DNA from: Acidobacteriota bacterium
GTDB lineage: Bacteria > Acidobacteriota > Terriglobia > Acidiferrales > UBA7541
NCBI GenBank assembly: GCA_003224525.1
Contig: QHZB01000199.1
Span: forward strand, 1-64,000
Reading direction: 5' to 3'
DNA: 64,000 nucleotides
Part shown: positions 11,533 to 36,378 of the stretch, one piece after another
Numbering within the stretch: the first letter of the stretch is position 1
Layout of the letters: each line of letters starts with the position of its first letter
Position numbers and translations under genes: made by a program
Notes under the pieces: model-generated
The model's input: the letters and a program-made list of their open reading frames with translations, nothing else
What the model was told of the DNA's origin: nothing
Databases searched by the model: none

Positions 11533-11636
11533 GGAACTTCGGGCTCTGTGCAACGAGGTCCCGCGAACCCCGCCAGGCCCGGAAGGGAGCAACGGTACCG
11601 GGATCACCTCGGGTGCCGCAGACCACCCGAAGTTCC
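11533..11636 (+). ncRNA. ffs: signal recognition particle RNA, small bacterial type
   Basis: A 104-base RNA folds end to end: GGAACTTCGGG at the 5' end pairs with CCCGAAGTTCC at the 3' end. The apex has the conserved SRP domain IV core, CCAGGCCCGGAAGGGAGCAA, with the GGAA tetraloop and asymmetric AGCA internal loop that bind Ffh. It lacks an Alu domain, as in most Gram-negative bacteria. Its position directly upstream of dnaX is a recurrent arrangement in bacteria. Ends are set by the terminal stem and could differ by a few bases. Confidence 0.93.
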
Positions 11637-34590: not shown

Positions 34591-34671
34591 AAGCGCCACA
34601 GAATCAGAGCGGCCATGCAAGACGGCCGGTTGCTCACGGGCGAAGTAGAGGCCGATGAAAGTTACTTCGTT
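34591..34671 (+). pseudogene. IS1595-family transposase remnant, 5' exon side of the intron
   Basis: A 27-codon piece reads AAMQDGRLLTGEVEADESYF, matching the IS1595 (ISXO2-like) transposase at its first catalytic Asp (normally GEVEVDESYFGG). The preceding 100 or so residues are absent. It is cut at the serine-tyrosine-phenylalanine by the group II intron and continues on the other side. Confidence 0.7.
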
Positions 34672-35401
34672 GTGACCTGAGGCTACGGAGATGAATGTCT
34701 GGCTTGGAGAAAGGAGCGGACCGTTCGTCCCATCGGACGTACCCTACGAGACAGAGCGGCCAGGTAACGAACTGTTCTGGAACTCTCGGACAATGGACCC
34801 CACTCGCAAGAGTGGCATCGGAGCCGCGAGGCAATGGTGCATCTGCTAGCATCGAGGCGGAGGTGGGACTAGGGTGCATGGATAGCATGGTGAGCATATG
34901 CAAACTCTTGCAAGCGTCGTAAGTTTCAGGGAGCGGAAGATGCTCTGCGCTCTTCTTGCAGTGGGTACGACGGCTCGAAGTTCCGTCGTCATGGGCACAC
35001 ATCACTGCCGGCGTATAGGGAGCACCTAAACTATCGAATCGAGTCATCTCCGTGGAACAGGATAAGCCCGTATCGCTCCCTGTAAAGGGAAGATCAACCG
35101 TAAGGCGGATCGATGGCGGTGCGGGTATCGGAATTGCGAGGAAGCGAATGCTGCCCTGTAATCGGGCAGATAGGGGTTGCGTTGCCTCGACGGGACAACA
35201 TTACCTCACCGGAAACGGGGCTGACTTCGCGATGGCGTTCAAACTCGAGGCCATTTGCGGAACCGATGAAGGAAGCAATGCAAATGACGGCACACGCCTG
35301 ATGGTTCTTCCATCGCCGTGCGAGTTGGCCGCAAGTCAGTATCGAGTAGGTTGAAATAAGGCCGCGTCCTCGTTTTTCAGGGGGGGCGTTATTGAATGCT
35401 C

Positions 35402-35435
35402 GAGCCGTGTGATGCGAAAGTATCACGCACGGTTC
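35402..35435 (+). ncRNA. group II intron domain V
   Basis: Exactly 34 bases: lower stem GAGCCGTG with CACGGTTC, a two-base CG bulge, upper stem TGATGC with GTATCA, and a GAAA tetraloop. The AGC catalytic triad is intact. This is the most conserved element of group II introns and identifies the insertion. Confidence 0.93.
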
Positions 35436-35477
35436 CTAGAGGGCTGGACGACCGTAAGGTCGTCCGGCTACTCGGCA
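35436..35477 (+). ncRNA. group II intron domain VI with candidate branch-point A
   Basis: GGACGACC and GGTCGTCC form a perfect eight-base stem around GTAA; GGCT pairs with GGCT through wobbles; GAG pairs with CTC across a bulged A at 35470. That A lies where a branch-point adenosine is expected, seven or eight bases before the 3' splice site. Confidence 0.75.
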
Positions 35478-36064
35478 AGCACGCAAGCCCCGCAAGGGCT
35501 GTCCTTACGTCAAGAAAGATAAGAAAGACGTGGTTTTGGGCATGATCGAGCGTGGCGGCAAACTACGCCTGGTTCCCGTGAAAGATGCCAGAATGGAGAT
35601 AATTGGCTCCGCGCTCGAAGAGCACATTAGCCCCCAAGCGCACACGATTTACACCGATGAGTCCGCTAGCTATGCGATCTATCTCCAAGCGGCACTTCGA
35701 TGCCGAACACAAGACCATCAACCACAGCCGGACCTACGGCATGGGTGACACGCACACGAATACGGTTGAGAACGCTTTCAGCTTGCTCAAGCGCGGCGTC
35801 TACGGCACATTCCACCGGGCTTCGATAAAACACCTGGGTCGCTATTGCCATGAGTTTGCCTATCGATGCAATCGCCGCGGGGAGCAATTGCAGATGTTCG
35901 ATGCGACGCTCAAGAGCATCCTGAACGAAAAAGCCCTGCCATTCAAAAAGCTCACGGCTTCACTAGCATCGGAGTCTTCCGCAACGTGTGTCGACAAGTT
36001 CTTCACCATTCCAAGACCAGAAATCCGGCCACGATTTCCATACCGCACAATTGCTCTGTGTTAA
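35478..36064 (+). pseudogene. IS1595-family transposase remnant, 3' side of the intron
   Basis: Frame 1 has KKDKKDVVLGMIERGGKLRL and the second catalytic Asp in YTDESASYAIY. One frameshift near 35690 moves to frame 2, which reads TYGMGDTHTNTVENAFSLLK, with the third catalytic residue, then GTFHRASIKHLGRYCHEFAY, typical of the DDE_Tnp_IS1595 domain. It ends at 36064. With the missing N-terminus, the intron and the frameshift, the transposase is dead. No inverted repeats were identified. Confidence 0.82.
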
Positions 36065-36378
36065 ATACATAATCGCCATTAAAACCCTTTAGAATCAACA
36101 CTTGCAAGAATGGTTCAAGACAACCGCCTTTAACTACAAAGCGCTTCCGCACGCTGCGTCAAAAAACACGAAGGGTGGGAGAAACGCTCTTTCGGTTCCA
36201 CAGGTCACGTGGCACTGGCCACGGATCGCGGAACAACAGTCACGAACCACGAGATGTGCTTGTCTTCCCCTTCAACTTTCAACCGTCGATCGAAGATCCC
36301 GACCTTGTCGGGACTGTCAACCTCCCCGCATCTCCTTGCTTCTTTACATCCTTACCTCATTACTTCTATTCTCTTCCC
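36065..36378 (+). other. leader region of ribBA
   Basis: 314 bases between the IS remnant and ribBA. The ORF track extends ribBA upstream to 36175, but that extension is low-quality. The last 70 bases are pyrimidine-rich (CTTCTTTACATCCTTACCTC). No FMN riboswitch (RFN) core is visible. Confidence 0.5.

Follow-up and report, generated by a model that had tools for sequence, protein, structure and literature searches.

An ORF-less group II intron, from a lineage with coupled, switching ends, in an IS1595-type transposase pseudogene of an Acidobacteriota bacterium

In group II introns, the first nucleotide makes a contact with the penultimate one that is the counterpart of the spliceosomal contact between the first and last intron nucleotides, whose alternative form is found in AT-AC introns. 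Group II introns usually start with GUGYG and finish with AY (PMC4424553), but these ends are not obligatory, as TeI4h and RmInt1 deviate from them (PMC8283771, PMC4238363). Passages in PMC4238363, PMC3669008, and PMC8283771 describe the first and penultimate nucleotides of yeast aI5-gamma as interacting at the second splicing step, on the strength of experiments by Chanfreau and Jacquier (1993). Table 1A of PMC8283771 gives U-G and C-G as compensatory double-mutant pairs at the splice ends of this intron and lists TeI4h as one natural U-G intron; it holds no natural C-G intron, of which there may be recorded cases elsewhere. In Thermosynechococcus elongatus, the ORF-less TeI3 introns spread after ORF loss with TeI4 driver proteins (PMC2882425).

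Here we describe an ORF-less intron in a 64,000-nt stretch of an Acidobacteriota genome (contig QHZB01000199.1), referred to below as the window. Its lineage resembles TeI3 in carrying one domain IV ORF deletion with ORF remnants and in the occurrence of the ORF-less form at many sites, with its own EBS–IBS pairing and in twintrons. It differs from TeI3 in its phylum, its RF02012-type core, its C-G besides U-G ends, and their repeated switching, and no driver protein was found in the window's draft genome. The U1/G-2 ends of the window intron are like those of TeI4h (PMC8283771). RmInt1 of Sinorhizobium meliloti, in ISRm2011-2, is likewise lodged in an insertion sequence and has a non-A penultimate base, but it has its own protein, belongs to class D, and ends in CC, whereas the window intron ends in GC with a putatively compensating U1 (PMC4238363). 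C.te.I1 of Clostridium tetani is also ORF-less, and its genome encodes no related protein, but it splices eight nucleotides upstream of GUGYG, whereas the window intron starts at the usual place with its first base changed (PMC4424553).

The original prediction, made from the sequence alone, was of an ORF-less group II intron splitting an IS1595 transposase gene, and the covariance-model search proposed with it gave significant matches to both the D1-D4 and the D5-D6 models. The complete RF02012 (D1-D4-7) model was matched with an E value of 3e-16 (Table 1), and the complete RF00029 (D5-D6) model was matched on the same strand at 35400-35476 (60.1 bits, E 2.6e-9). An ORF check of the window found no intron-protein ORF inside 34670-35476, so that the ORF-less intron is supported on both counts. 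The predicted 34-base domain V and domain VI with a bulged A are present as well, the A lying at intron position -7. D5-D6 has a folding energy of -47 kcal/mol (z -7.3 against shuffles), and its 77 nt are identical to those of a copy from another species (L050). Over 49 distinct relatives, 98.1% of the D5-D6 pair cells are kept compared with 75.8% in shuffles, in an alignment that was fitted to the tested structure and favours it; 21 of the 29 pairs show two-sided changes. The stretch AAGCCCGTAT at 35064-35073 is also kept in the relative L047. With a domain V with covarying helix, a bulged A, a homologous domain I core, and an EBS1–IBS1 pairing all found, the element is, on sequence grounds, a group II intron. 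Its lineage is the HNH-encoding, IIB/CL type. The element type is already known, and the variant is its alternative end-pair with recurrent switching.

Table 1. Features of the intron and its host gene (positions in the window)
Feature	Position	Strand	Basis or remark
Left IS1595-type transposase remnant (...EVEADESYF)	34594..34669	+	DNA match to L059, L060, L062
IBS1 (ACTTCG), final six 5'-exon bases	34664..34669	+	6/6 pairs with EBS1
ORF-less group II intron, 807 nt	34670..35476	+	Rfam RF02012 and RF00029; empty-site homologues; EBS1–IBS1 register
5' end UUGUG, first base U where consensus has G	34670..34674	+	
Domain I core, type D1-D4-7	34721..34868	+	RF02012, 85.8 bits
Likely EBS2 (TTTCA)	34924..34928	+	pairs with TGAAA at 34656-34660
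EBS1 (CGAAGT), domain I hairpin loop	34976..34981	+	pairs with own exon in 12/14 relatives
Domain IV, limits approximate; ORF-start remnant and deletion common to other ORF-less copies	35225..35390	+	alignment
Domain V, 34 nt, GAAA loop	35402..35435	+	RF00029, fold, pair counts
Domain VI, bulged branch-point A at 35470	35439..35473	+	RF00029, fold, pair counts
3' end GGC, penultimate G (35475) where consensus has A	35474..35476	+	
Right IS1595-type transposase remnant, frameshift near 35690	35477..36064	+	PF12762; homologues

Both halves of the split transposase were confirmed, the right flank by a match to PF12762 (DDE_Tnp_IS1595; E 3.9e-15) and the left by the DNA match given in Table 1. Intact IS1595-type homologues from the genus (L059, L060) are 312-313 residues long. 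The window gene is without about the first 118 residues and carries a frameshift; as had been proposed, the host gene is a truncated, frameshifted IS1595-type transposase pseudogene. The scan used found no clear terminal inverted repeat pair in L059 or L060, and the left end of the window element is missing. Downstream of the transposase, at 36084-36113, lies CTTTAGAATCAACACTTGCAAG; its match in L062 is located upstream of the transposase there, and the sequence is possibly an end of a second IS1595-type element. Elsewhere in the window, positions 11537-11635 hold a bacterial small signal recognition particle RNA (RF00169, 70.9 bits).

The boundaries first proposed, about 34672-35477, were right in placing an insert of some 800 bases, but empty sites and the IBS1–EBS1 pairing move the exact ends by 1-2 nt. 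The uninterrupted homologues L059, L060, and L062 have the same exon length as the window gene, and the insert is thus exactly 807 nt. At their 3' end, related introns are conserved up to CTCGRY and divergent beyond; with the conserved end at 35476, an insert of this length has its 5' end at 34670, not 34672. The number of relatives in which the aligned EBS1 place pairs with the own exon compares with at most 4-5 for shuffled exons, and in 12 of 14 the paired exon stretch ends at the base just before the variable first intron nucleotide. For EBS2, 7 of 15 relatives show pairing between the aligned place and their own exon, where shuffles give no more than 4-5; the window's pairing is displaced by one base from the aligned place. 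We also considered a delta–delta' contact, which found no support: the base upstream of EBS1 is nearly always T, and the first base of the 3' exon varies.

An intron running from GTGACC (34672) to 35477 or 35478, with the variable base before TGYGAC counted as exonic, would have a GUGAC start resembling the consensus GUGYG, and the IS1595 exons alone allow several one-base slides of the 807-nt insert. We nevertheless find this register scarcely credible. In the window, the exon that pairs with EBS1 has 34669 as its last base, and in relatives the paired exon stops at the corresponding base; the 3' sequence is conserved to CGRY and divergent after it. In L039 and the copies in SRAP genes, the exon frames are restored with conserved residues in the 34670-type register, and only a register that begins with the variable base restores W|GAP and W|QR. 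Moreover, covariation with intron position -2 would not be expected of a base in the exon.

Starting at 34670, the window intron has UUGUG...GC in place of the literal consensus GUGYG...AY. The earlier reading of the ends had missed this altered U1...G-2 pair, the most informative feature. Judged against its relatives, the deviating ends are compensated as a U1/G-2 pair. We surveyed 50 introns of the lineage with both ends readable, drawn from sister and related genomes, named genomes, and plasmids, with the ends fixed by two covariance models. There were 28 G1/A-2, 11 C1/G-2, and 10 U1/G-2 introns and a single C1/A-2, such that the first and penultimate bases are concordant in 49 of 50. In SRAP genes (PF02586), both forms share a single site, after GFYEW or GFFEW: L122 is G1/A-2, and L117 and L208 are U1/G-2, with exon frames confirming the intron junctions. 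Among all 15,323 cross-end column pairs, first–penultimate ranks first (z 14.3).

The only intron with mismatched ends, L218:3463-4028, is ORF-less; in its genome, the sister copy L217 is U1/G-2, and L219 begins with U and is without a 3' end. L218 is either a degraded copy or an intermediate. Distant beta-proteobacterial relatives (L168, L169, L170, L171, and L172) end in CTACCCTCC; like RmInt1, they have C as the penultimate base.

The coupling might reflect inherited linkage, that is, two old lineages with different ends and a mixing of copies, with no functional contact. The copies are indeed related, some tree branches are weak, and G1/A-2 and Y1/G-2 introns are each clustered. Several observations make this explanation improbable. 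On a tree of the intron RNA built without the first and penultimate columns, the first base must have changed at least 8 times and the penultimate base at least 9 times, and a single Y1 clade is rejected both overall (p-AU 1.7e-49) and within the window's group (p-AU 0.01). Seven independent pairs on well-supported branches were concordant in 6.7 cases on average, although the sign test (p 0.016) is only moderately strong with so few pairs. Coupling of the first base to adjacent end positions is slight, and U-G and C-G are the pairs listed as compensatory in aI5-gamma (PMC8283771 Table 1A).

By analogy with aI5-gamma, we infer that the coupled bases touch each other at the second splicing step, which in the window intron would be a U1–G-2 contact. 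The end contact of the lineage would then be interchangeable between G1.A-2 and pyrimidine-G (C1-G-2 or U1-G-2), with the bases at the two positions changing in concert. To judge from the aligned introns, the end-pairs of the lineage are natural covariation for a contact that previously rested mainly on experiments, structure, and single introns. It is very improbable that the end-pair is in addition a selected two-state switch (G.A versus C-G/U-G), possibly stopping co-resident or nested introns from sharing 3' splice sites; in nested pairs, the outer and inner end states are opposite in L047 and L158 and both C-G in L048.

Intron DNA of this lineage is present in 15 of 101 related genomes, and a search of 399 genomes of the class finds RF02012 in 30. 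Full-length relatives have ORFs of 603-627 codons that encode a protein with reverse transcriptase, maturase, and HNH parts. The closest solved structure to this protein is PDB 6me0 (E 3.5e-202, residues 27-588), with 6mec and 8fli, the maturase reverse transcriptase of the T.el4h group IIB retroelement; the window intron encodes no such protein. Named relatives of the protein occur in Acidobacteria MAGs, Herpetosiphon, Dictyobacter, and several proteobacteria. Viral contigs yielded no relative. Long non-RT ORFs downstream in L046 and L057 were considered as intron cargo, but their sequences suggest an ABC-permease-like protein and a protein kinase, and we take them as ordinary neighbours of truncated introns. 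One sister genome carries a molybdenum/tungsten cofactor riboswitch (L047:1805-1969; RF01055, 48.8 bits).

Several further arrangements of group II introns were observed. Twintrons of the window's lineage lie at L047:5898-9151, where the inner intron has an intact 627-codon ORF; at L048:3710-5275, where outer and inner introns are both ORF-less; at L158:380-5167; and at L201:998-2355, where the outer 3' end is not reached. SRAP-gene copies (L117, L122, L208, L120, and L160) occupy a recurrent site after a GFYEW-like motif, and L235 and L237 lie between umuD and a Y-family polymerase gene, at the start of the latter; the SRAP and Y-family polymerase targets are DNA-damage-response genes. In the window's own genome, L042:1-2548 (contig C59) has a close pair of group II introns that belong to other types. 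D5-D6 lies at 1944-2019 and 2472-2548 and D1-D4-3 at 2064-2236, and the introns overlap both a recombinase-like ORF and a truncated RT ORF.

The proposal that mobility requires a protein in trans agrees with what we found. Protein-bearing, full-length relatives were located in sister genomes (L047, L055, and L056), as the original prediction had suggested looking for, but the window's own genome has only remnants. No intact lineage protein was found in that genome, a draft of 516 contigs (98% complete) in which a driver-protein copy may thus be missing, and the one intact RT there is of a different lineage (34% identical). With no intact lineage protein there, the window copy is probably stranded. 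One junction between the ORF start and a short domain IV is common to seven copies: the window intron, L047 outer, L048 outer, L048 inner, L049, L054, and L201. These copies sit in differing exons, most have an EBS1 matching their own exon, and the tree test does not reject their forming one clade (p-AU 0.21). One deletion in seven copies at unrelated sites indicates that ORF-less copies moved after protein loss. Since L039 and L128 carry other deletions, ORF loss has also recurred.

These observations are very probably explained jointly by a non-autonomous copy of the HNH lineage that was carried in trans, is probably stranded, and has U1/G-2 ends from a lineage with coupled switching. A single ORF loss in an ancestor would have produced the shortened form, which would then have spread through the bacterial family. 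The window copy may have arrived by retrohoming, inserting in the sense direction into the IS1595 transposase gene through EBS1–IBS1 base pairing, with the intron protein supplied by another copy. That protein source would since have gone from the genome. Excision would proceed by branching at A35470.

Whether the copy is still active is a separate matter, and it may neither splice nor move at present, given its additional small domain IV deletions, its dead host gene, and its lack of a cognate protein. The same three features would suit an inert relic, an old insertion unable to splice or move, with decay recent enough to mimic intactness. The complete core models, the intact D5-D6 with its identity to L050, and the perfect EBS1–IBS1 pairing speak against this. 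We consider a relic a serious possibility, though not the favoured one; it is compatible with the trans-carried HNH-lineage copy proposed above, as that explanation concerns identity and arrival.

The lineage thus adds a further ORF-less intron family spreading after ORF loss, here in uncultured Acidobacteria. With at least 8 natural flips of its end-pair, and with both forms at one gene-family site, it offers ready matched pairs for testing. Such pairs bear on how strict the contact is in the second splicing step and on how introns cross between its two forms.
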